DNA of 64,000 bases from Gemmatimonadota bacterium. GTDB lineage: Bacteria; Gemmatimonadota; Gemmatimonadetes; Longimicrobiales; Gaopeijiaceae. Where the stretch lies: positions 1 through 64,000 of the forward strand of contig JAJDVT010000084.1 of the NCBI GenBank assembly GCA_022826005.1. Reading direction: 5' to 3'. The position numbers were made by a program, and so were the translations under genes. Below the pieces are notes generated by a model, which was given only the letters and a program-made list of their open reading frames with translations, was not told where the DNA came from and ran no database searches. Positions 6,943-19,686 of this stretch are shown here, in pieces. The first letter of the stretch is position 1, and every line of letters begins with the position of its first letter.

Positions 6943-7012
6943 CTGACGGGGTGATTCCGGTGCTCCGCCCGTGGCGGGCCCCGGAGGTATCCGATCAACC
7001 GGGGACGGAATC

Positions 7013-8956
7013 ATGAGAGCGCGTACCTCCCATCGGCCGACACTCGCAGCGGCGACCCAAGGCAGCGGAGGAATCGGCGAACATCTTGAGTGCTGGCTGC
7101 TCCTCATCCTCATCGGAACCGCGGCCTGCGAACGGGACCTGGACATGCTCGATCCGGCCCCCTTCCCCCCCGAGTCCGCCGTGTTCATCGACGGCTTCGG
7201 CCCAGGCGTGCAGTTCTCGGCCTTCGGCGGGTCCAAGGTCGACGCGCTCGACATCGAGCAGGATCTGGTCTACGAGGGGACGGCTGCGCTCAAGTTCACG
7301 ATTCCGGCTCCCTCCGACCCGTCCGGCAGCTACGCCGGGGGCGTCTTCCATTCCACCGGGCCGCGCGACCTCAGCCAGTTCGACGCGCTCACCTTCTGGG
7401 CCCGCTCAAGCACCGCGGCAACGCTCAACACCGTGGGAATCGGCAACGACAACGCCGGGAACCAGCTTTACGCCGCGACGATGGACAACCTGCCGCTCTC
7501 CACGCGCTGGACGAAGTTCGCGCTGCCGCTGCCGCTCCCCGCCAGGTTGACCGAGGAGAGGGGACTGTTCCTGATGGCGGAGGGGTCCGAATTCCCCATC
7601 GGCTACGACATCTGGTTCGACAACGTGCAGTTCGAACGGCTCGGCACGATCGTGAACCCGCGGCCCGAGATCGCCACTCAGTCGGTGAGCGGGGAGGTGG
7701 GTGGAACGCTCGCCGTCGGCGGGACGCGGGTCACCTTCGATGTTAACGGGACCGACCGCACGGTGACGGCGGCACCCGCCTACTTCACCTTCTCTTCGTC
7801 GAACAGCGGCGTGGCAACGGTGGCCCCGGACGGCTCGGTTCAACTGGTCGGCCGGGGGACTGCCACGATCACCGCGTCGCTCGGGCCGACCGCCGCGAGC
7901 GGAGAGGTCACCGTCAACGTCTCCGTGCCGCCGAACGCCCCGCCACCGACCCCGGAGGTCCCGGCCGAGGACGTGATCTCGCTCTTCAGCGACGCCTACG
8001 CGGACGTACACGTCGACACCTGGTCCGCCGTGTGGGACCAGGCGGACGTCGCCGACGTGCAGATCGCCGGCAACGCGGCCAAGAAGTACACCAACCTGAA
8101 CTACGCGGGGATCGAGTTCACCTCGCAGCCGGTCGACGCGTCGGCGATGACCGAGCTGCATGTGGACCTGTGGACGAACGACGATTCCGCCTTCCGCATC
8201 AAGCTGGTGGACTTCGGGGCCAACGGCGTATTCGGTGGCGGCGACGACACCGAGCACGAAATCACGCTGAACGAGGGCTCGATGCCCCCGATCACGACCG
8301 GCGAGTGGAACGTTCTGGACATCCCGCTTTCCGCCTTCGCCGGATTGTCGAGCCGGAGCAGCCTGGCCCAGATGATCATCTCGGGGGCGAGCCCGACGGT
8401 CTACCTCGACAACGTCTTCTTCTACAAGGCGGTGGCGCCTGAACCCGCCGAGCCCGCGCCCACGCCGAGCCACGCCGCCGACAAGGTCGTTTCGCTCTTC
8501 AGCGACGCGTACGACGATGTCGAGGTCGACACCTGGTCGGCCTCCTGGGACCAGGCCGACGTGGAGGATGTGCAGATCGGCGGAAACACCACCAAGAAGT
8601 ACACGAACCTGGTCTTCGCCGGGATAGAGTTCACCTCCAGCACCATCGACGCATCGGAGATGACGCACTTCCGCATGGACTTCTGGACGCCCGACGCCAC
8701 CGGGGATCCTGCTGCCTTCCGCATCAAACTGGTGGATTTCGGGGCCGACGGCGGCTTCGGGGGCGGTGACGACACGGAGCACGAACTGTCGCTCACCGCG
8801 GCGACGGATCCGGCGCTGGCCACCGGCCGGTGGGTGAGCTTCGACATTCCGCTCACCACCTTCACCGGACTGACCACCCGGGGACATCTCGCGCAGTTGA
8901 TAATTTCGGGCGACCCCAGCACGGTGTTCATCGACAACGTCTACCTGCGCCGATGA
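7013..8956 (+). CDS. Surface lipoprotein with Ig-like domain and two carbohydrate-binding-type repeats
   Basis: A 647-residue lipoprotein, with start at 7013 and a lipobox ending G-T-A-A-C39. Residues 55-215 form a jelly-roll-like domain (partner segment W-F-D-N-V-Q-F). Residues 220-305 look like a bacterial Ig-like (BIG2) domain. Two homologous repeats follow, at about 320-472 and 492-647. Each opens with D-x-V-x-S-L-F-S-D-A-Y, contains F-R-I-K-L-V-D-F-G in the middle and ends with V-x-x-D-N-V, a pattern seen in domains attached to laminarinases. It is probably a glucan-binding surface protein. It is the first gene after operator site 1 and the likely first gene of an operon with the ROK regulator, GH16 and transporter. 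A permuted copy of the same repeat occurs in the transporter at 11110-13227. Confidence 0.85.
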   Translation: MRARTSHRPTLAAATQGSGGIGEHLECWLLLILIGTAACERDLDMLDPAPFPPESAVFIDGFGPGVQFSAFGGSKVDALDIEQDLVYEGTAALKFTIPAPSDPSGSYAGGVFHSTGPRDLSQFDALTFWARSSTAATLNTVGIGNDNAGNQLYAATMDNLPLSTRWTKFALPLPLPARLTEERGLFLMAEGSEFPIGYDIWFDNVQFERLGTIVNPRPEIATQSVSGEVGGTLAVGGTRVTFDVNGTDRTVTAAPAYFTFSSSNSGVATVAPDGSVQLVGRGTATITASLGPTAASGEVTVNVSVPPNAPPPTPEVPAEDVISLFSDAYADVHVDTWSAVWDQADVADVQIAGNAAKKYTNLNYAGIEFTSQPVDASAMTELHVDLWTNDDSAFRIKLVDFGANGVFGGGDDTEHEITLNEGSMPPITTGEWNVLDIPLSAFAGLSSRSSLAQMIISGASPTVYLDNVFFYKAVAPEPAEPAPTPSHAADKVVSLFSDAYDDVEVDTWSASWDQADVEDVQIGGNTTKKYTNLVFAGIEFTSSTIDASEMTHFRMDFWTPDATGDPAAFRIKLVDFGADGGFGGGDDTEHELSLTAATDPALATGRWVSFDIPLTTFTGLTTRGHLAQLIISGDPSTVFIDNVYLRR

Positions 8957-9022: not shown

Positions 9023-10246
9023 ATGCCGTACGTCAGAAAAGCGCCCAGAGCAGACACCGATCGCGAGCTGACCAGCACGGTTCTGGAACTCGTCTGGAGG
9101 CGGCAACAGGTCTCCCGGGCCGAGATTGCCCGCCACACGGGACGATCCCGTTCGACCATCTCGGAAGCCGTCGCGCGGCTCCTCGACACCGGGCTGGTGG
9201 CAGAGGTGGGGAGCGGTGAGAGCCGGGGCGGCCGACGTCCCATCCTGATCGGCTTCCAGGACGAAGCGGGCGTAATCCTGGGCGTGGACATCGGCGCGAC
9301 CCACGTCGCCGTGATCCTCACCGACCTGCGCGGAAGGACCCTGGCGTGGCGGGAGCGGCCCCACCCCGTGCGCAGCGATCCCAAGGGCGCGGATGCGCTG
9401 ATTACGGGGCTGGGGGAGGTGTGCCTGCACGAGTGGAACGGGGACCGGGACCGGCTGATGGGGATCGGGGTCGCCGTGCCCAGTCCGGTCGATCCGCAAT
9501 CGCCCGATGTCGTGCTGGACCGCGTCCTCCCCGCCTGGCGCGGGCACGGGATCCTGGACCGGCTGAAGAGCGTCTTCGACGTGCCCGTGTTCGTCGACAA
9601 CGACGCCAATCTGGGCGCGGTGGCGGAGCACTGGTGGGGGAAGGCGGTCGGGATCGACGACTTCGTGTACCTGAAGGTCGCGACCGGGGTGGGCGCCGGG
9701 CTGATGATCGGGGGCGAGATCTACCGGGGCGCGACCGGGGTGGCAGGCGAGATCGGCCATATCGCGATCGACCCGAACGGACCGAAGTGCGTGTGCGGGA
9801 ACCGGGGCTGCCTCGCCACCTTCGTGGGAACCCGGCACCTGGTGGAGCGCGCCACGGCCCTGGTCCCCAGCCACCCCGATAGTGCCCTCGCCGGGACGGA
9901 ACCGGACATTCGCATAATCGAAGACGCCGCGCTGGCGGGCGATGAACTTGCACTGCGGGTGGTGAACGAGGCCGCGGTGCACCTGGGCATCGTCGTGGCC
10001 GGCGTCCTCAACCTGATGAACCCCGGTTCGGTGATCATCGGAGGCAGCCTGGCCCGCGCCGGCGACCGGCTGCTCGCTCCCCTGCGGGAGGCCGTGGCCA
10101 GCCGCACCCTCGTGGCTTCGGCCGCCGCCTCGGAGATCCGGACCAGCGAACTGGGCAAGCGCGCCACGGCTCTGGGTGCCGCCACGCACGTCCTGGTCGC
10201 GGCTCTCGACAATCCCCGGCTCTTTCCAGGAGTGAAGTCGGCATGA
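9023..10246 (+). CDS. ROK-family transcriptional repressor
   Basis: A 407-residue regulator. Residues 15-65 form a winged helix-turn-helix (V-S-R-A-E-I-A-R-H-T-G-R-S). The rest is the ROK sugar-kinase-like fold with V-D-I-G-A-T, V-D-N-D-A-N and E-I-G-H. The zinc motif C-x-C-G-x-x-G-C is present, but the Glu usually two residues after the last Cys is Ala. ROK repressors such as NagC and XylR release DNA on binding a sugar or sugar phosphate; here the inducer is likely a glucose or laminari-oligosaccharide derivative (inferred from neighbours). Two identical 25-bp palindromes at the promoters of the flanking glycan genes are its probable operators, so it would also control its own operon. Its TGA overlaps the ATG of GH16. 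Confidence 0.9.
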   Translation: MPYVRKAPRADTDRELTSTVLELVWRRQQVSRAEIARHTGRSRSTISEAVARLLDTGLVAEVGSGESRGGRRPILIGFQDEAGVILGVDIGATHVAVILTDLRGRTLAWRERPHPVRSDPKGADALITGLGEVCLHEWNGDRDRLMGIGVAVPSPVDPQSPDVVLDRVLPAWRGHGILDRLKSVFDVPVFVDNDANLGAVAEHWWGKAVGIDDFVYLKVATGVGAGLMIGGEIYRGATGVAGEIGHIAIDPNGPKCVCGNRGCLATFVGTRHLVERATALVPSHPDSALAGTEPDIRIIEDAALAGDELALRVVNEAAVHLGIVVAGVLNLMNPGSVIIGGSLARAGDRLLAPLREAVASRTLVASAAASEIRTSELGKRATALGAATHVLVAALDNPRLFPGVKSA

Positions 10247-11106
10247 AGCACAATCGACGCAGATCCACCACCCGCCACCGCAGAGGCGCCGACTGGCGCC
10301 TCCGGTACGACCGCCCCTCCCTACTCTTCCTGCTGTTCGCACTGGCACCGGTCGGCTGCGACAGCTTCGACGGCGACGCAGAGCCGGTCTGGACACTGGT
10401 CTGGAGCGACGAGTTCGACGGCCCGGCCGGACAGCTCCCAAGCGCTGCCAACTGGACCTTCGACATCGGGACCGACTGGGGCAACAACCAGCTCGAGTAC
10501 GACACCGACCGTCCCGAGAACGTGTCGCTGGACGGCGACGGCAACCTGGCGATCACCGCTCGGGAGGAATCGTACATTGGCAGCGCCTACACCTCGGGCC
10601 GCATCAAGACGCAGGGGCTCTTCGAGCAGACGTATGGCCGCTTCGAGGCGCGCATCCGGTTGCCCACCGGACAGGGGATCTGGCCCGCCTTCTGGATGCT
10701 GGGCAACGACATCGACACCGTCGGATGGCCCGAGTGCGGCGAGATCGACATCATGGAATACCGCGGACAGGAGCCGACCATGGTCCTTGGCACCGTTCAC
10801 GGACCCGGCTATTCCGGCGGTGGCGGGGTCGGCGGCCGCTACGCCCTCACCGGCGACCGCTTCGACACCGGCTTCCACGAGTTCGCGATCGAGTGGACCG
10901 AAGGCGGCATCGTGTGGTTCGTCGACGGCCAGCGCTACTACTCCGTGGACCAGGGCGACGTGAACGGCCGCTGGGCCTTCGACCACCCCTTCTTCATCCT
11001 TCTGAACGTCGCCGTGGGGGGCGGCTTCGTCGGCCCTCCCAACGAATCCACGACCTTCCCCCAGACCATGCTCGTCGACTGGGTGCGGGTCTATGGCAGC
11101 AATTGA
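10243..11106 (+). CDS. GH16 endo-beta-1,3-glucanase (laminarinase-type) lipoprotein
   Basis: A 287-residue glycoside hydrolase. A lipobox (L-A-P-V-G-C) follows a basic N-terminus, so the enzyme is probably anchored to a membrane and faces outward. The GH16 active-site signature E167-I-D169-I-M-E172 carries the nucleophile (E167), assisting Asp and acid/base (E172). The extra Met between D and E is the form typical of laminarinases rather than kappa-carrageenases or lichenases. Start W-S-D-E-F-D-G and end V-D-W-V-R-V-Y are standard family landmarks, so the catalytic domain is complete. No carbohydrate-binding domain is attached, unlike many relatives. The ATGA overlap with the ROK gene indicates translational coupling. 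Confidence 0.92.
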   Translation: MKHNRRRSTTRHRRGADWRLRYDRPSLLFLLFALAPVGCDSFDGDAEPVWTLVWSDEFDGPAGQLPSAANWTFDIGTDWGNNQLEYDTDRPENVSLDGDGNLAITAREESYIGSAYTSGRIKTQGLFEQTYGRFEARIRLPTGQGIWPAFWMLGNDIDTVGWPECGEIDIMEYRGQEPTMVLGTVHGPGYSGGGGVGGRYALTGDRFDTGFHEFAIEWTEGGIVWFVDGQRYYSVDQGDVNGRWAFDHPFFILLNVAVGGGFVGPPNESTTFPQTMLVDWVRVYGSN

Positions 11107-11109
11107 GCC

Positions 11110-13227
11110 GTGAGCCAGCGGACCGCTCCCGAAGACCGGATTTCCTTTCCGCACAAGGTCATCTACGGGATTGGCGGCTTCGTAAACAACCTGCTCGCTT
11201 CCGCAATCGGCGGAATGGCGATCATTCTCACGCTGGCTCTGGGCGTCAGTCCCGCGCTCGTCGGCCTCCTGGGGCTGTTCCCCCGCATCTTCGACGCGAT
11301 AACCGACCCTCTCGTCGGCTTCATTTCGGACAACACCAGGTCGCGCTGGGGGCGACGGCGGCCCTTCATCTTCGTCGGAGCCATCTTCACGGGCATCGTG
11401 TTTGCACTGCTCTGGCAGATTCCGGCACCGGCCCAGTTCCGTCTCAAGCTCGTGGACTACGGCGCGGACGGCGTCTACAGCGGTGTGGAGGCGGTTCAGG
11501 ACGAGACGGAAGCAGTGGGGGTCGCGCGGGCCGTACCCGGGCTGATCGGCACCGGCCAGCGGATGGACGACGTCGAACATGAAGTGATCATCACGCCGCC
11601 CACACTGGTCACAGGCCGGTGGGTCGGCATCGATGTTCCCCTGGCGGATTTCGACCAGCTGACCACGCGTGACCACCTCGCCCAGATCCTCATCTCGGGC
11701 GACCTCGAGAACGTCTACGTCGACAACATCTATCTGTACCGGGTAGGCGATCCCGGTGAGCGGGCTGAACCGCTGCCCCAGGAAGACGCGGACGGGGCAA
11801 CGGCACCGTCGACCGCTGCGCCGACACCCACCGTCCCCGCCGAAGACGTGATTTCCTTCTTCAGCGACGCCTACGAAAACGTCCCCGTCGGGTACTTCTC
11901 CACGGACTGGGACCGCGCGGAGGTGGAAGACGCAGCCGCGGGCGGGGACCCCGTCAAACGCTACTTCGACCTTCGCTTCGCCGGAATCGACTTCGGCGAG
12001 CAGACGGTTGACGCAACCGGCATGACGCACGTCCACCTCGACATCTGGACGCCCGACGAGACGCCCGAGGGCCGAAGCGACATGTACTACTTCTGGCACT
12101 TCCTGATCGGGTCGCTGATCTTCTTCCTGGGCTACACGATCTTCGCGACGCCCTGGGTGGCGCTGGGCTACGAGCTGACGCCGGCCTACAACGAGCGTAC
12201 GCGGCTGATGGGCGTGCAGAACTTCATCAGCAACTTCGCCTTCATCATCGCGCCGTGGTTTCTCGTCATCATGACGAATCCGAACTGGTTCCGGAACCAG
12301 ATCGACGGCGCAAAGTTCCTCGCGCTGATGGTCTGCATCGCGACGATCGCCCTCGGCGTCCTCCCCGCCCTCTTTCTGCGGGAGCGGGTCGCCCCGGCAC
12401 CCGCCGCGGCGGCGGCCAGCAGGGCCAGCAGGAACAGGACCAGCAAGAGCAGAAGTACCAGGGCAGGCGTCGGCGATTTCCTGTCCGGCCTGGTGAAGAC
12501 CGTCAAGTCCGGGCCGTTCCTGCTCCTGTGTCTCGCGACCTTCCTGATCTTCAACAGCTTCATCATGATCTCGTCGTTCCAGATCTTCGTGTTCATTTAC
12601 CACATCTCCGAGGGGAGCCAGGTCGACGGGGCCTGGCTGGCTGGGATCGTGGGCACGGTAGGGATCGTGGCGGGGTTCGGGGCCATCGTGGTCGTCACCT
12701 GGCTGGGGACCAGAATCGGGAAACGCAAGGCGTTCTTCGTATCGACCGGGATTTCCATGCTGGGGTATGCACTGAAGTGGTTTTGCTACCGGCCCGACAT
12801 GCCCATGCTGGCCCTCGTGCCTGCACCCTTCCTGGCCTTCGGCCTGAGCGGGCTCTTCACCCTCATGGGCTCGATGATCGCGGATGTGGTCGATCTGGAC
12901 GAGCTCCGGAACATGGACGCCCAGGGACGCAGCGAGCGGCGGGAGGGGATGTTCGGCTCCATCTACTGGTGGGTGGTCAAGGTCGGCCAGGCGGTCGCTC
13001 TCGGCCTCGGCGGCTACCTCCTGGTCGCCACCGGATTCGACATCGATCTGGGGGCCAACCAGGCGGCCGGGACCCTCGTGCAGATGCGCGCATTCGACGC
13101 CTTCATCCCCTTTGTGGCGTCGGGCGTGGCGATCTGGGCGATTGCGAAGTTCCCCATCACCGAGGAGATGGCGCGGGGAACCCGCGCGGAGCTCGAGCGT
13201 CGGCGGACGGGGGGCGGGGCGGCATAG
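11110..13227 (+). CDS. GPH/MelB-type MFS sugar transporter with an inserted, circularly permuted carbohydrate-binding-like domain
   Basis: A 705-residue protein starting at GTG 11110, four bases after the GH16 stop. Residues 1-105 and 319-705 form a normal glycoside:cation symporter: the cytoplasmic R-S-R-W-G-R-R-R-P loop follows TM2, and Y-T-I-F-A-x-P-W-V-A-L-G-Y-E-L-T is typical of the family. Residues about 106-318 are foreign to it. They match the repeat of the lipoprotein at 7013-8956, but with halves swapped: first F-R-L-K-L-V-D-Y-G to V-D-N-I-Y-L-Y, then an acidic/Pro/Thr linker, then D-V-I-S-F-F-S-D-A-Y to H-L-D-I-W-T-P-D. A 26-residue extra loop lies within the first half. The frame is intact throughout. 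The insertion is in the loop between TM3 and TM4, which faces the periplasm. A Ser/Arg/Ala-rich segment at about 430-455 is the central cytoplasmic loop. Confidence 0.85.
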   Translation: MSQRTAPEDRISFPHKVIYGIGGFVNNLLASAIGGMAIILTLALGVSPALVGLLGLFPRIFDAITDPLVGFISDNTRSRWGRRRPFIFVGAIFTGIVFALLWQIPAPAQFRLKLVDYGADGVYSGVEAVQDETEAVGVARAVPGLIGTGQRMDDVEHEVIITPPTLVTGRWVGIDVPLADFDQLTTRDHLAQILISGDLENVYVDNIYLYRVGDPGERAEPLPQEDADGATAPSTAAPTPTVPAEDVISFFSDAYENVPVGYFSTDWDRAEVEDAAAGGDPVKRYFDLRFAGIDFGEQTVDATGMTHVHLDIWTPDETPEGRSDMYYFWHFLIGSLIFFLGYTIFATPWVALGYELTPAYNERTRLMGVQNFISNFAFIIAPWFLVIMTNPNWFRNQIDGAKFLALMVCIATIALGVLPALFLRERVAPAPAAAAASRASRNRTSKSRSTRAGVGDFLSGLVKTVKSGPFLLLCLATFLIFNSFIMISSFQIFVFIYHISEGSQVDGAWLAGIVGTVGIVAGFGAIVVVTWLGTRIGKRKAFFVSTGISMLGYALKWFCYRPDMPMLALVPAPFLAFGLSGLFTLMGSMIADVVDLDELRNMDAQGRSERREGMFGSIYWWVVKVGQAVALGLGGYLLVATGFDIDLGANQAAGTLVQMRAFDAFIPFVASGVAIWAIAKFPITEEMARGTRAELERRRTGGGAA

Positions 13228-13271: not shown

Positions 13272-14465
13272 ATGGTTATGACTGAGTTGATTCCCCGCGA
13301 AGCCAGCAACCGGTTGGCGCATCTGCTGGCCAGAGCTCCCGCAGTTGTGCTGACGGGGCCGCGTCAGGTCGGCAAGACGACTGTGGCGCTGGAGTTCGTC
13401 CGTGAGCAAAACGGCGCCTACCTCGACCTCGAGGATCCGCGTGATCGTGCGAAGCTCACCGATGTCCACAAGTACTGCGAACGGAACGCCAGCCGCCTCG
13501 TGGTCCTCGACGAGATCCACCGGATCCCGGGACTCTTCGAGCCTCTGCGGGGAATCATCGACCGGCGCAGACGCGAGGGCCGGCGGACGAGCCACTTTCT
13601 ACTGCTGGGTTCGGCGTCGATCGATCTGCTCCGGCAGACCGGAGAGACCCTCGCGGGACGGGTCGCGTACTGCGAGATGCGGCCCCTGAACGTGCGCGAG
13701 GCGGCCGAAACGGATGTGGAAGACCTCTGGCATCGTGGCGGCATGCCCGACAGCCTGCTGGCGGCAGACGACGCCGACAGCTTCGGGTGGCGCTTCGACT
13801 TCATCCGAACCTGTCTCGAGCGTGACATCCCCGCCCTCGGCCCCCGTATCCCGCGCGAGACGTTGCGGCGGTTCTGGACAATGCTGGCCCACGATCAGGG
13901 GCAGCCCTTCAACGCCGCGGTCCTGGCCAGATCCCTTGGCCTCAGCGGCCGGACCGTGGGGCGCTACCTCGACCTGATGGTCGATCTGCTTCTGGTACGG
14001 CGTCTGCCGTCATGGCGGAAAAGCGTGCGAAAGCGCCTGGTCAAGGCGCCAAGGGCCTACCTCCGGGATAGTGGCATCTGCCATGCCCTGCTCGGCATCG
14101 ACTCATTTGACGCGCTGCTGGGCCATCCGGTAGCTGGCGGCAGCTGGGAAGGCTTCGTGATCGAGAACATCCTGAGTGGGCTTCCGGCGCACGTCGCGTG
14201 CTCCTATTACCGCAGCACGGGAGGCTCGGAGATCGACCTGGTCCTGGAGTTGGGGGGCGGGGAGGTCTGGGCCGTGGAGATCAAACGGAGCTCGGTACCC
14301 AAAGTCGCGCGCGGCTTCCACAACGCGTGCGACGATGTCAAGGCCGATCGCCGCCTCGTGGTACACGGAGGCGACGAGAGCCATCCGTTGGGCGACGGCA
14401 TCGAAGCGGTCTCGCTTCGGGATATCTGCGCGGAGTTGAGGGGCCGCAACCGTTCCTGCGGGTAA
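13272..14465 (+). CDS. AAA_14/DUF4143 ATP-binding protein
   Basis: A 397-residue protein of the widespread AAA_14-DUF4143 family. Walker A is G-P-R-Q-V-G-K-T-T (near residue 29) and Walker B is R-L-V-V-L-D-E-I-H (near 78). The DUF4143 half (about 190-390) contains a winged-helix-like stretch (S-L-G-L-S-G-R-T-V-G-R-Y) and a nuclease-like E-I-D-L-V-x-E followed by A-V-E-I-K, the PD-(D/E)XK pattern. The cellular role of these proteins is unresolved; they are often found in accessory regions. It lies 44 nt after the transporter with no functional link to it, and probably marks the end of the glucan operon. Confidence 0.88.
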   Translation: MVMTELIPREASNRLAHLLARAPAVVLTGPRQVGKTTVALEFVREQNGAYLDLEDPRDRAKLTDVHKYCERNASRLVVLDEIHRIPGLFEPLRGIIDRRRREGRRTSHFLLLGSASIDLLRQTGETLAGRVAYCEMRPLNVREAAETDVEDLWHRGGMPDSLLAADDADSFGWRFDFIRTCLERDIPALGPRIPRETLRRFWTMLAHDQGQPFNAAVLARSLGLSGRTVGRYLDLMVDLLLVRRLPSWRKSVRKRLVKAPRAYLRDSGICHALLGIDSFDALLGHPVAGGSWEGFVIENILSGLPAHVACSYYRSTGGSEIDLVLELGGGEVWAVEIKRSSVPKVARGFHNACDDVKADRRLVVHGGDESHPLGDGIEAVSLRDICAELRGRNRSCG

Positions 14466-14532: not shown

Positions 14533-16395
14533 TCACTTCCGAGTAGCAGACAATCCGTAACCGCGCGGGAACAGAACCCCGCCGCGCCCCCCCTCCGTCC
14601 CCTCCCCACCCCCCGGCATCTCGCCCGGCCACGCCATCGGCAACCGCCCCACGAAATCGTGGTCCCCGAACAGCACATCGGCCACGCCGGCTCCCTCCGA
14701 GCCCGGCAGCCACGCGGACACGAAGGCCCGCGACGCGTCCAGCTCGGCGCTCACCACCAGGGGCCGCCCCGAGATCAGCACGGTCACCACGGGAATCCCC
14801 TGCGCGGCCAGCCCCCGTATGAGCCGCAGGGCCTCCGGATGGAGCGCCGCAAGTTCCAGCGTGTTGCCGTAGGGTTGAAGTGCACCCGGACCCGCGGGGA
14901 GGTGGTTTGTCCCCGGCCGCACGGGGCCGGGCTCGCGGATGTCGCCGAGTCCCTCGGCGTAGGGGCGCTCGCCGACCACCACCACTGTCGCGTCGAAGTC
15001 GTGCGTGTCGGGGAGTTCACCCACCGCGGTCCCGTCCCCCCCCTCCCCCCACAGCACCGCCTCCGGCGCCACCGCGCGAATCCCCTCCCAGACCGACGTG
15101 CCCCCCTCGATCGCGCCGTTGCCGCCGACGCCCTGCCACTCGACGGTGAAGCCACCGCACTGCCGCCCGCGGTCGTGCGCGGCGGGGCCGGTCACCAGAA
15201 TGCGGGCACCCTTGTCCAGCGGCAGCACGCCGGCGTCGTTCTTCAGCAGCACCAGCGACTTGCGCACAGCCTCCCGCGCCACTTCGCGATGCTCGCGCGA
15301 TCCGAAGCTGCTGCCGTTGGATCCGCGTCTGCCCCACGGCCGGGGCCGCTCGAACAGCCCGCACAAGAACTTCACCCGCAGGATCCGCGCGACCGCGTCG
15401 TCGATCCTCTCGATCGGCACGTGCCCCCACTCCACCCGCTCCCTGAGCCCCGCGATGAAGGCCTGCCACGTCTCCGGCACCATGAACATGTCGATCCCGG
15501 CGTTTACCGCCATCACGGCCGCCTCGGTGTAGTCGTCAGCCAGGGGATCGATCCCGTTCCAGTCGGATACCACAAAGCCGCGGAACCCCATTTCCCCCTT
15601 CAGCACATCCTGGATCAGGTACCGGTGCCCGTGGCACTTCTCTCCGTTCCAGCTGCTCAGCGAAACCATCACCGTCAGCACGCCTGCTTCCAGCGCGGCT
15701 GTGTACGGAGCAGTGTGCACCCTACGCAACTCCTCCTCGTCAACCACCGTGTCCCCCTGGTCCACCCCCGCCCGGGTCCCCCCGTCGCCCACCCAGTGCT
15801 TGGCGCACGCTGCGACGCCGCTGTCCTGCAGTCCCTTCACCATCCTCCCCGCGTACGCGGCCACCAACTCCGGATCCTCCGAAAAACTCTCGTAGGTGCG
15901 CCCCCAGCGCGGATCGTGCGCCACGGCCAGGGTGGGTGCGAAGGTCCAGTCGACACCGGCGGCCCGCACCTCGCGCGCCGTCACGACCCCGATCCGCTCG
16001 ACCAGATCCGGATCGCGCATGGCACCCAGGCCAATGTTGTGCGGAAAGATCGTGGCGCCGAGCACGTTGGCATTCCCGTGGATCGCGTCGACGCCGTAGA
16101 GGATCGGGATCGCCAGATGGTCCCCGTCCTCCTCCATCGACGCCGCCCAGTACGCGTCGTTCATCGCCACCCAGTCGGCCGGGCGGTTGTCCCCCGGGCA
16201 GGAACCGCCCCCGCTGAGCACCGAACCGATGTGGTAGCGCTTCACCTCGTCCGGGGTGACGTGCATCCGCTCCGGCTGCGTCATCTGCCCTATCTTCTGG
16301 TCGAGGGTCATGCGCGCGAGGAGAACCGCAACCTGCTCCTGCACGGTGGAGGATGGTTCGGCCAAAGCCGGCGCGGAGCTTGTGAAACTCGTCAC
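14533..16395 (-). CDS. GH3 beta-glucosidase
   Basis: A 620-residue glycoside hydrolase family 3 enzyme. The catalytic nucleophile is D278 in F-V-V-S-D-W-N-G, and K-H-W-V-G-D marks the (beta/alpha)8 domain. The second, alpha/beta-sandwich domain follows from about residue 385 (S-L-V-L-L-K-N-D). It resembles the plant-type beta-glucan exohydrolases in layout. GTG at 16395 is the likely start. No signal peptide is evident, although the N-terminus is Ser/Ala-rich, so the location is uncertain. It lies 57 nt downstream of the GH-A glycosidase and is probably co-transcribed from operator site 2. It would release glucose from oligosaccharides made by the GH16 enzyme. Confidence 0.92.
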   Translation of the reverse strand: MTSFTSSAPALAEPSSTVQEQVAVLLARMTLDQKIGQMTQPERMHVTPDEVKRYHIGSVLSGGGSCPGDNRPADWVAMNDAYWAASMEEDGDHLAIPILYGVDAIHGNANVLGATIFPHNIGLGAMRDPDLVERIGVVTAREVRAAGVDWTFAPTLAVAHDPRWGRTYESFSEDPELVAAYAGRMVKGLQDSGVAACAKHWVGDGGTRAGVDQGDTVVDEEELRRVHTAPYTAALEAGVLTVMVSLSSWNGEKCHGHRYLIQDVLKGEMGFRGFVVSDWNGIDPLADDYTEAAVMAVNAGIDMFMVPETWQAFIAGLRERVEWGHVPIERIDDAVARILRVKFLCGLFERPRPWGRRGSNGSSFGSREHREVAREAVRKSLVLLKNDAGVLPLDKGARILVTGPAAHDRGRQCGGFTVEWQGVGGNGAIEGGTSVWEGIRAVAPEAVLWGEGGDGTAVGELPDTHDFDATVVVVGERPYAEGLGDIREPGPVRPGTNHLPAGPGALQPYGNTLELAALHPEALRLIRGLAAQGIPVVTVLISGRPLVVSAELDASRAFVSAWLPGSEGAGVADVLFGDHDFVGRLPMAWPGEMPGGGEGTEGGRGGVLFPRGYGLSATRK

Positions 16396-16452: not shown

Positions 16453-19400
16453 CTACATCCCGATGTGCAGGTACGTCCGGATTTCCCACTCACGCCCGTT
16501 GTCGCCGCCGAGTTTCGGGTTGCATTCCATCCTCCCGAAGTCGTCGGGGCTCATCCCGGGGCAGTAGCGCGGCGAATACTCGTTCAGCGTGCGCATGGTG
16601 GCACGCACGCCGAACCGCGTCTGCGGCATGTCGAACCACTCCGGCGGCCCCAGCGTGTACGAGATGTCGCCCATGACCTGCAGCGGGAAGGTGTGGTTGA
16701 AGTCGCGGTGGTAGTCGTAGGGCCCCCAGTCGTTCAGGCGCGCCATGCCCTGGAGCTTCACCGAGCCCGTGATCACGCGGAGGTCGAGCCCGGCCCGGTT
16801 GATCTTGCGGTCGTCGCTGCCGTTCGGCTCGCCGGTTCCCGCGAAGACGTTGGCGATCATGCCCGGGCCGGCCTGCCGCTTCGAGACGATCCGCGCCTTG
16901 AACTCCCAGAGGTCCTGCGCGGGGGGCGCGCCGGGGAAGGCGAAGGTGGACCGGCCGTCCGCGAAGATGCCGATGCCTGCGTCCTGGGTGGTGGGGAAGT
17001 TGAAGTAGACGAAGCCGAACGAGGTCGCGAAGATGGCGTCTTCGCGCATGTCGCTGTCCCAGGTGTACATCCAGGTGGCCGGCGTCGGGTCGTAGGTGAA
17101 GAGGATCTCGGCGGCGCGGGTCTCGCGGTTGCCGCGGACCGCAAAGGGGTCGTCGAGGATGTTGCGGGGGCGCCCCGGGGCCTGCACGTCCGACGGGACC
17201 GGTCCCACCAGCGGCTTGCGCCACAGGAAGTTGGGCGCGACCTGCCAGTTGCCGTTGGTGATCGCGAAACCGGTGAGGAGGTTGCGCTGGTTGCCGCTGC
17301 CGGTGTCCTTGAGCGTCCACCCGGTGAAGGTCTGGGTCTGGGTGTAGCCGCCGTCGGCCACGAGGCCCATCGCCGCGCCCTGCAGATACCAGCTGAGCCG
17401 GCCCATCGTCATCGTGATCCTGGCCTTGGCGCCGAGGGCGTCGTCCGCCTTGATCTCGTCGGCGAGCACGCGGTAGTTCCCGGCCTCGCCGTCCACGACC
17501 TGGAAGGGCTGCCCCTCCTTTGTGCTCCCGGACCAGATCCCGCCGATGTCGAAGATCGTGCTGCCGCGCGTTGCTGTAAGGTGCAACGTCGCCTTGCGCG
17601 TGGCCGGCACCGGAATCGCGAAGGAGCTGGCCGCCTTGCCCGCCTCCGCCAGGTCCTCCTGGAAGATGCCCGTGGTCTCGAAGGGCCCCAGCCGGGTCTG
17701 GTACTTGGCCAACACCGCCGGGTTGGCCCCCCACCACAGCTCGGGACCGATCGCCACCTTCAGTCCACCAAGGCTGCGCTTGCCGGTGATCTCCATCCCG
17801 ACCGGCGCGACCCCGTTGTAGGTGTCCATGTTCGGCCCGTAGTTGGCCTCCGGATACAGTCCGAAGAAGTCCCCTTCGTACCCCCAGTGGTAGTGGCCGG
17901 TGCGGTAGAATCCCTCGAGGCTGAACCAGCGGTCGTCCCAGGATACGTTGGCGCTGTACACCTTGAGCCGTTCGATGTCCTGAAGCTGGTAATCCTGGCC
18001 ATCGACCTTGACGTTCCGCGGACGGCCCCGGTTCTCGTAGAAGAGCTCGTCGATGGGGTTGGTGGGAACGTCGCCGAGGATGTTGATGGAGACGTTGGCG
18101 ATCATGTTCTGGGTGGGACGTCCGGCCAGGTCGGCATAGAAGGACTGCATCTTGTCGAAGCCGCGGAAGCTCGGGTAGGCGGGATTCCGCGCGGGCGCCT
18201 CTTCGGGGGTGCTGACCAGGGAGCCGCCTGTGCTGAAGGTCTCCAGCTCGATGCGCACGCCGCTCAGGTGGACGCGGTCGAGCGCCGTGGCGAGGAGGGC
18301 CGCGCGGTCACCCTGCGCCTTCAGCCCCATGTTGGCCGGCTGAATGCTCGCGAAGTGCTCCCGGATCGCCGTGACGTCGGTCCCGGGCGCGTAGGGATCG
18401 AGCCGGTACGCCTCCTGGAGCGCGTAGTACGCGGCCCGCGGGTAGAGTTCGTAGAGGTTGTTGAGGTCGGTGGGACCCTTGGCGACGATCCCCCACCACT
18501 CCTCGTTCATGTTGTTGTCGCCCTCGACGAAGTCCTCCGGGTAGGCGTCGTTCGCCCAGGAGGCGTTCGTGTCCTGGATGTCCAGCCGGTCCTCCTGGCC
18601 GAACTTCCACCAGCCGTCGGTCCACTGGAAGGTCAGCCCGCCGATCGAGTTGCCGACCATGCCCTTCCCCGCCGACTGCTCGTAGATCTCGCGCCACTGC
18701 TCGACGAGGTACTTCGCCTGGACGACCTGGTCCTCGCGCATGTTCTTCGCGTCCCACACGTCCGCGCCGAACTCGGTGAACATGACGGGGCGGTCCAGCT
18801 TGTCGTGCACCTCCTGGAAGAGGTCCCCGAAGGAGATGCCGCGGTAGACGTTGGTGCCGAAGATGTCCAGGTCGGGGATCTCCTCGGCGATGATGTCGAT
18901 GTACTGGAGGTCGCCGTTGGCCATCGCGATGGGGCGGGTGGGGTCCATCTCCTTGATGCGCGCCGCCACGTCGCCGAAGAGGGAGTACATGTAGCGGGCG
19001 CGGACCGCGTTGGCCTCGCCCTCGGGCAGGTCTTCCGTCTCGGCGGAGCTCCACACCAGCCCGTAGTTGTTCTCGTTGCCCAGCAGCCACATGAGCACGC
19101 CGGGCGTGTCCTTGAAGGCGCTGACCATGTCCTCGATCTCGGCCATCACGACCGCGCGGGCGCGGGGGTCCGAATAGTCCGTGTTCGCGTTGAAGACGCC
19201 GCCCACGGTCACCCCGTAGCGGGCCACCGCGTGGTTGAGGACCGTGTAGATCCCGTACTTCTCGTAGATGTGCCGCACCCACCTGGGCGTAATCCCCACG
19301 TAGGCGCGGATCGCGTTGCCGCCCATCGCCTTGAGCAGCGACATCTCGCGGTCGAGCGCCGCCTCGATGATGTGGTCGGGCTCGGTCCAGAAGTTGTAGT

Positions 19401-19686
19401 TGTAGGTCGTGCCGCGCGGGAAGTAGTCCCAGTTGACGCCGAGCACCATCATGTCCTCGCCGTCGACCTGGAGACGCGTGCCGGAGGCGTCCTTGACGAG
19501 CCGGATGATGGGCAGAGGGGGCGTGTCGGTGTCCTGGGCAGCGCCGGGGCGGAGCGGCGCGAGGGTCAGAAGCACGAAGACCGGAAGGAACAGGGCCGCA
19601 AACCCGCCGCGAAGCGCCCGAAAGGCGCCGGGAGTGGGGAGGGCCGGCACGGCATATCGTCCGGTGTGAATACGGATCGAACTCAT
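16453..19686 (-). CDS. Secreted GH-A-clan glycosidase with a large beta-rich C-terminal half
   Basis: A 1077-residue exported protein (signal peptide about residues 25-50, ending G-A-A-Q). Residues 55-450 form a TIM barrel of the GH-A clan type: the acid/base Glu is E205 in L-L-G-N-E-N-N-Y-G and the nucleophile Glu is E305 in V-M-F-T-E-F-G-A-D, on strands 4 and 7 as expected. I cannot assign a numbered family; GH2-, GH5- or GH72-like enzymes are closest in feel. Residues 540-1077 are alternating amphipathic beta strands rich in W, Y and F with short turns, resembling an outer-membrane barrel or large beta-sandwich, and the protein ends R-T-Y-L-H-I-G-M. Operator site 2 lies 30 nt upstream, so the gene belongs to the ROK-controlled glucan set. 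Confidence 0.82.
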   Translation of the reverse strand: MSSIRIHTGRYAVPALPTPGAFRALRGGFAALFLPVFVLLTLAPLRPGAAQDTDTPPLPIIRLVKDASGTRLQVDGEDMMVLGVNWDYFPRGTTYNYNFWTEPDHIIEAALDREMSLLKAMGGNAIRAYVGITPRWVRHIYEKYGIYTVLNHAVARYGVTVGGVFNANTDYSDPRARAVVMAEIEDMVSAFKDTPGVLMWLLGNENNYGLVWSSAETEDLPEGEANAVRARYMYSLFGDVAARIKEMDPTRPIAMANGDLQYIDIIAEEIPDLDIFGTNVYRGISFGDLFQEVHDKLDRPVMFTEFGADVWDAKNMREDQVVQAKYLVEQWREIYEQSAGKGMVGNSIGGLTFQWTDGWWKFGQEDRLDIQDTNASWANDAYPEDFVEGDNNMNEEWWGIVAKGPTDLNNLYELYPRAAYYALQEAYRLDPYAPGTDVTAIREHFASIQPANMGLKAQGDRAALLATALDRVHLSGVRIELETFSTGGSLVSTPEEAPARNPAYPSFRGFDKMQSFYADLAGRPTQNMIANVSINILGDVPTNPIDELFYENRGRPRNVKVDGQDYQLQDIERLKVYSANVSWDDRWFSLEGFYRTGHYHWGYEGDFFGLYPEANYGPNMDTYNGVAPVGMEITGKRSLGGLKVAIGPELWWGANPAVLAKYQTRLGPFETTGIFQEDLAEAGKAASSFAIPVPATRKATLHLTATRGSTIFDIGGIWSGSTKEGQPFQVVDGEAGNYRVLADEIKADDALGAKARITMTMGRLSWYLQGAAMGLVADGGYTQTQTFTGWTLKDTGSGNQRNLLTGFAITNGNWQVAPNFLWRKPLVGPVPSDVQAPGRPRNILDDPFAVRGNRETRAAEILFTYDPTPATWMYTWDSDMREDAIFATSFGFVYFNFPTTQDAGIGIFADGRSTFAFPGAPPAQDLWEFKARIVSKRQAGPGMIANVFAGTGEPNGSDDRKINRAGLDLRVITGSVKLQGMARLNDWGPYDYHRDFNHTFPLQVMGDISYTLGPPEWFDMPQTRFGVRATMRTLNEYSPRYCPGMSPDDFGRMECNPKLGGDNGREWEIRTYLHIGM

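Follow-up and report, generated by a model that had tools for sequence, protein, structure and literature searches.

A permuted carbohydrate-binding-like domain in the periplasmic TM3–TM4 loop of an MFS_2 sugar symporter from Gemmatimonadota

The window, a 64,000-nucleotide stretch of a Gemmatimonadota genome, encodes an MFS_2-type sugar symporter that carries 213 additional residues (106–318) between TM3 (84–101) and TM4 (324–356). The insert corresponds exactly to a single period in a tandem array of CBM-like domains; it starts halfway through one copy and stops halfway through the following one, and is hence out of register with the domain borders. This architecture is real, old and conserved. 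On balance, we infer that the permuted CBM-type domain, gained once from repeats of the locus, captures beta-gluco-oligosaccharides for import, so that it would bind them, deliver them and raise their uptake. The features are as follows, with window positions, strand and evidence.

6971–8956, plus strand: lipoprotein with a Big_2-like region and two tandem copies of the domain (Pfam, profile; true start perhaps 7013)
7964–8422, plus strand: lipoprotein repeat 1 (profile match, 246.2 bits)
8477–8947, plus strand: lipoprotein repeat 2, modelled as a CBM beta-sandwich (pLDDT 96.5; CBM fold matches)
9023–10246, plus strand: ROK-family regulator (Pfam ROK)
10243–11106, plus strand: GH16 beta-glucanase-like lipoprotein, directly upstream of the transporter (Pfam Glyco_hydro_16, 91.2 bits)
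11110–13227, plus strand: MFS_2 (GPH/MelB/MFSD2A-like) sugar symporter with insert, 705 aa (Pfam, model, fold matches)
11110–11424, plus strand: TM1–TM3, residues 1–105, including the DAxxDP motif (model helices 13–36, 48–74 and 84–101; MelB alignment 11–103)
11425–12063, plus strand: inserted domain, residues 106–318, one period of the tandem repeat (permuted profile matches; no insert in 58 of 80 named homologues)
11425–11742, plus strand: second half of the CBM-like domain, coming first, residues 106–211 (profile 75–157; strands 110–116, 158–161, 172–177, 190–197 and 201–210)
11479–11562, plus strand: expanded loop, about residues 124–151, absent from the lipoprotein repeats (alignment; segment 121–156 with pLDDT below 50)
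11743–11838, plus strand: Pro/Thr-rich linker, longer counterpart of the inter-repeat linker (linker comparison; dN/dS 0.36–0.90)
11839–12063, plus strand: first half of the CBM-like domain, coming second, residues 244–318 (profile 1–77; strands between 247 and 313)
12064–13224, plus strand: TM4–TM12 of the symporter (model, from helix 324–356 on)
13272–14465: AAA_14/DUF4143 ATPase gene between the transporter and GH3 genes (Pfam)
14533–16395, minus strand: GH3 beta-glucosidase-like protein, with no obvious signal peptide by eye (Pfam)
16453–19686, minus strand: protein with a GH2-type TIM-barrel match (Pfam Glyco_hydro_2_C)

The transporter frame is open from 11110 to 13227, over its whole length and thus on both sides of the insert, as the sequence-only reading had noted. 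Its Pfam MFS_2 match reaches 174.9 bits against a gathering cut-off of 27. For TIGR00792 (GPH:cation symporter subfamily) the transporter scores 142.4 bits, below the curated cut-off of 231.35, as do all four insert-free homologues tested (160.7–190 bits); we therefore file it as MFS_2 and GPH-like rather than as a strict subfamily member. Structure prediction from an alignment of 28 of the 34 transporter rows extracted (alignment A2) gave a model with a mean pLDDT of 78.8 and a pTM of 0.78. Because this model superposes on MFSD2A (8d2t; Z 37.4, rmsd 2.5, 442 residues aligned) and on MelB (8t60; Z 36.0, rmsd 2.3, 413 of 417 aligned), we judge the membrane part to be whole despite the insert, the predicted transporter fold being intact. 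The window transporter and MelB have the DAxxDP motif in common (D62 and D66 in the window protein), an acidic pair of the MelB type that would play a part in cation-coupled sugar transport. The arginine-rich loop RSRWGRRRP, which precedes TM3, aligns with the corresponding loop of MelB. By MelB topology this loop is presumably cytoplasmic, and the TM3–TM4 loop should therefore face the periplasm, a placement that fits a domain otherwise found in lipoproteins. The helix positions in the model and the intact MFS fold bear out the earlier placement of the insert between TM3 and TM4.

The profile of the lipoprotein repeat matches the transporter, in order, with columns 76–104 (22.8 bits), columns 96–157 (67.6 bits) and, after the linker, columns 1–77 (109.6 bits). 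The full domain is covered in permuted form, by about 75–157 plus 1–77, which places the insert in the same domain family as the lipoprotein repeats. Every one of the 21 insert rows extracted has the order second half, linker, first half; the permuted layout is therefore not due to chance, and the claim that residues 106–318 are the lipoprotein repeat with its second half first holds throughout. The cut lies between W-T-P-D-E-T and A-P-A-Q-F-R, in the loop 71–80 that joins strands 4 and 5 of the native repeat, and the profile is tiled without loss; it was likewise right that nothing is missing at a cut between L-W-T-P-D and F-R-x-K-L-V-D. The strands of the native repeat (6–8, 26–34, 37–51, 64–70, 81–87, 100–106, 120–125, 138–145 and 150–156) reappear, rotated, in the insert of the full transporter model, and because of this match we infer that the two halves pack together. 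Structure prediction of residues 1–705 and the rotated comparison of the repeats with residues 106–318 thus agree with the sequence-only reading, the former giving an intact MFS fold with rotated repeat strands, the latter full profile coverage with the same strand order.

The two halves are joined by a linker of 32–52 aa in the 21 inserts, compared to 15–26 aa in 83 linkers between lipoprotein repeats. Many inter-repeat linkers carry A-P-T-P near their end, and the linker of the window insert ends similarly (AAPTPTVPAEDVIS). Its greater length would suit closure inside one domain. Specific to the inserts is also the expanded loop, about 25 extra residues after G-A-D-G that adjoin a conserved DDxE stretch; it is poorly kept between subgroups, with low conservation and low model confidence. 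One subgroup has an amphipathic-looking stretch here (window 11479–11562), e.g. GLLESIGNSLKGIVTVE, which is possibly a membrane or partner contact.

The native repeat was modelled from 56 aligned copies (alignment A3, 56 of 127 plus-strand repeats, picked for diversity), with a pLDDT of 96.5 and a pTM of 0.91. According to VIA-align, its closest folds are CBM8 (7t7y; Z 12.4, rmsd 3.1, 139 residues aligned), CBM30 (2c24; Z 12.0, rmsd 3.2, 142 aligned), a xanthanase (Z 12.0), an agarase (Z 11.9), CBM11 with bound beta-1,3-1,4-glucan (Z 11.7), and the laminarin-binding CBM X584 (8qx6) and the ExoP X domain (both Z 10.8). Foldseek concurs, with CBM11 as the top match (E 9.1e-6). These comparisons, made on the parent lipoprotein repeat and not on the insert alone, assign the repeat to the CBM beta-sandwiches; non-carbohydrate-binding proteins are also among its fold matches, so that the fold by itself is no proof of binding. 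At the sequence level, neither the insert nor the window repeat matches a Pfam CBM family, nor do the five other insert-bearing transporters scanned; Pfam SGBP_B_XBD matches 2 of the 56 repeats weakly, and Pfam, NCBIfam and a profile comparison with PDB chains gave no clear sequence family for the domain. Since no curated CBM family is matched, we call the domain "CBM-like". The earlier description as carbohydrate-binding-like thus stands for the predicted CBM-type fold of the unpermuted parent, but not for membership of a curated CBM sequence family. The repeat family itself has no Pfam entry.

The lipoproteins contain the domain as tandem copies, usually two to four per frame. Five copies share one frame in L085, and eight loci (L050, L051, L056, L057, L059, L060, L061 and L062) have two adjacent frames with full repeat copies. 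Since the insert corresponds to a single period of such an array, its origin does not call for a permutation event of its own: the term "circularly permuted" is correct for the complete domain, but the insert is better read as one out-of-register period. We propose that the source was the tandem CBM-like repeats of the lipoprotein encoded in the same locus, and that the domain was gained once, into the periplasmic TM3–TM4 loop of the inner-membrane MFS_2 symporter of a beta-glucan locus. One period would have been taken from the strand 4–5 loop of one copy to the equivalent loop of the next, and the halves and the linker would then close into a single permuted domain, complete and with its two ends brought together at the loop. 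As a guess at the route of insertion, microhomology between the target (LW..P) and the repeat (IWTP) at the junctions may have been involved. A recent copy of the window's own lipoprotein is ruled out; the insert is at most 56% identical to its own repeats and up to 85% identical to other inserts.

How widespread is the insert? Among the 80 named loci listed, from 304 confirmed relatives, 19 contain both junctions, with inserts of 208–228 residues, and 58 are insert-free and read straight through at the insertion point, e.g. L064 (LLWQMPEGRSESYYFWYF), which agrees with the proposed empty I-P-E-G site. The remaining three (L063, L102 and L107) are not in one readable frame, although L063 does carry the insert. 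Its transporter gene is frameshifted past the insert, near the central loop (around L063 positions 11247–11365), and is either a pseudogene or affected by an assembly error. In a search of the phylum, 50 of 395 genomes had matches at E 1e-20. Nineteen of these genomes, the window's included, have the full-length insert; two others carry part of it, namely G007, with a frameshift behind the insert, and G005, split across two contigs. The two collections overlap in organisms, and their counts are not additive. With the insert found in many other Gemmatimonadota, the outcome that all close relatives lack it did not occur. The window genome consists of 143 contigs, which might suggest a misassembly or chimera, but full-length inserts in 18 other genomes and partial ones in two, among them three single-contig genomes (G001, G021 and G114), and the low identity (at most 56%) of the window's repeats to its own insert leave this a negligible probability; independent assemblies with both junctions rule it out.

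All insert-bearing named records are labelled as Gemmatimonadota (Longimicrobiales, Candidatus Palauibacter and others), while the insert-free ones come from other Gemmatimonadota, Gammaproteobacteria, Ignavibacteria, Zixibacteria, Krumholzibacteria and more. In the membrane-part tree a branch with a support of 100/100, present in 100% of 200 bootstrap trees, sets the 20 insert rows (the window and 19 others) apart from the rest, and every member of the insert branch keeps the insert; the domain-copy tree separates 21 inserts from 136 repeats with a support of 100. The membrane-part tree leaves out the long rows L105, L106, L110, L111 and L119, and neither tree contains L063, L102 and L107, in which one part lies in another frame; alignment A1 has 16 rows. 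Several independent insertions are not supported, the tree requiring one change (root not inferred). The Palauibacter transporters L057, L059 and L060 nest among other insert rows, some of them labelled Longimicrobiales, which, on the sequences, may reflect transfer of the locus between lineages. Passages of PMC9531527 trace the jk18x MAG names to Ircinia sponges, and PMC10469786 reports sponges, corals, sediments and saline soils as habitats of Palauibacterales. For the remaining MAG records our literature search found no hosts, and the portion of PMC12398682 consulted does not name them. As far as these partial sources trace the hosts (jk18x MAGs and Palauibacterales), the insert carriers are marine bacteria, often sponge-associated.

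For seven hand-picked pairs we obtained dN/dS values of 0.06–0.50 for the domain halves, 0.36–0.90 for the linker and 0.01–0.17 for the membrane parts. In most of the pairs the rate of evolution is higher in the insert than in the membrane part, and the linker and expanded loop are fast. Judging from these ratios, purifying selection acts on the transporter part and on the insert halves. The repeats have 48 near-invariant columns, of which 35 are retained by at least 80% of the inserts, 40 by at least half and 13 by less than 80%; the mean retention of variable columns is 0.43. Most of the conserved aromatic and acidic residues are retained, e.g. Trp-70, Trp-119, Asp-98, Asp-99, Glu-101 and Glu-103, and Trp-24 is kept in 14 of the 21 inserts. 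Asp-18, Thr-19, Glu-51, Phe-88, Ile-142 and Thr-149 of the repeats are kept in none of the 21. Because of these changes and the expanded loop, the ligand site of the insert may be altered, and its binding may differ from that of the repeats.

What would the transporter carry? A locus with GH16, GH3, a ROK regulator and a CBM-like lipoprotein indicates beta-glucan use. The top NCBIfam match of the GH3 gene is an exo-beta-1,3/1,6-glucosidase, at a score under that model's cut-off. Across the named insert loci (n = 20) we counted repeat-query matches in 20, ROK in 19, GH16 in 19 and GH3 in 13, with many contigs ending early; in L054, on a short contig, the repeat-query match is the insert itself. 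The other named loci (n = 60) have GH3 in 42, GH16 in 39, repeats in 22 and ROK in 21. AAA_14/DUF4143 ATPase-like genes also lie near some other insert loci. In four insert-free relatives the transporter is fused at its C-terminus to a complete GH3 in one open frame (L093:2-3565, L112:6170-9556, L115:9953-13327 and L120:9959-13297). If the topology is as in MelB, the fused GH3 lies on the cytoplasmic side, and these fusions support beta-glucosides as cargo that is cleaved after import. In PMC11345257 one cluster is mentioned that combines GH16 and CBM proteins with an MFS gene separate from them.

The GH16/GH3/lipoprotein context and the transporter–GH3 fusions lead us to see in the insert a domain for capture in the periplasm. 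The domain would bind beta-gluco-oligosaccharides set free by GH16 and would concentrate them at the transporter mouth, or pass them to it; GH3 would then split the imported oligosaccharides in the cytoplasm. Since 58 of the 80 listed relatives are insert-free, many of them in similar loci, the insert is not required for transport. The existence of such homologues and the fast evolution of the linker and expanded loop would also suit a passenger that a permissive loop tolerates and that does no more than fold harmlessly, a reading to which we give a small probability: the domain halves are constrained (dN/dS 0.06–0.50), although folding constraint alone could account for part of this, and no branch member has lost the insert.

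The insert could instead have lost sugar binding and mediate a periplasmic protein–protein contact, e.g. docking to the CBM-like lipoprotein, the GH16 lipoprotein or another transporter copy. The near-invariant repeat residues changed in all inserts and the insert-specific loop would be in line with this, but most of the conserved aromatic and acidic residues named above are retained and the loop is poorly conserved between subgroups, and we regard such a contact as unlikely, if worth keeping in mind. Its position in the TM3–TM4 loop of an MFS fold could also let the domain regulate transport, gating or sensing the substrate by ligand binding or by its place over the mouth, instead of delivering it; this seems very improbable to us, as neither the Pro/Thr linker nor the low-confidence loops look like parts of a rigid gate.

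With the capture reading as our preferred one, it is quite conceivable, if somewhat short of probable, that here a secondary-active MFS importer contains its own permuted domain for glycan capture, acquired when one period of a tandem CBM array nearby slipped into one of its loops. It would then be the single-chain equivalent of uptake that depends on a binding protein. Outside the insert branch, no MFS sugar symporter among the solved relatives and homologues compared has a domain for substrate capture. A conserved natural CBM-type insertion would make the coupling of capture and transport directly testable, with the insert-free homologues as controls. The case also suggests that a tandem array offers a route into a tight loop, an out-of-register period being a complete permuted domain with adjacent ends. 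Our searches of titles and abstract beginnings in the open-licence literature turned up no description of an MFS transporter with a CBM-type domain inside it, and no papers on laminarin-binding CBMs.

The window transporter shares its fold, the DAxxDP motif and the full set of helices with the MelB- and MFSD2A-type symporters. These have no domain in the TM3–TM4 loop (the MelB alignment runs through), like the 58 insert-free homologues, whereas the window transporter has one. CBM11, CBM30, CBM8 and X584 share the beta-sandwich with the parent repeat; however, they have no sequence match to the window domain in Pfam or in the profile comparison with PDB chains, and the window domain is permuted and lies inside a transporter. 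SGBP-B (7kwb), a PUL surface glycan-binding protein, has a CBM-like fold (Z 9.4 against the repeat model) but is a surface lipoprotein, not a transporter. TRAP and ABC substrate-binding proteins would be functionally similar if periplasmic delivery of substrate is what the domain does, but they have other folds and are, unlike the insert, mostly separate proteins. Eukaryotic MFS proteins such as PepT1/2, OATP and OCT also carry a large folded domain in an outward-facing loop, although, as far as is known, the loops and the domains are other ones; OATP1B3 and OCT1 appear in the fold-match list of our transporter model. Because such animal proteins are known, the architecture described here is not of a wholly new kind.
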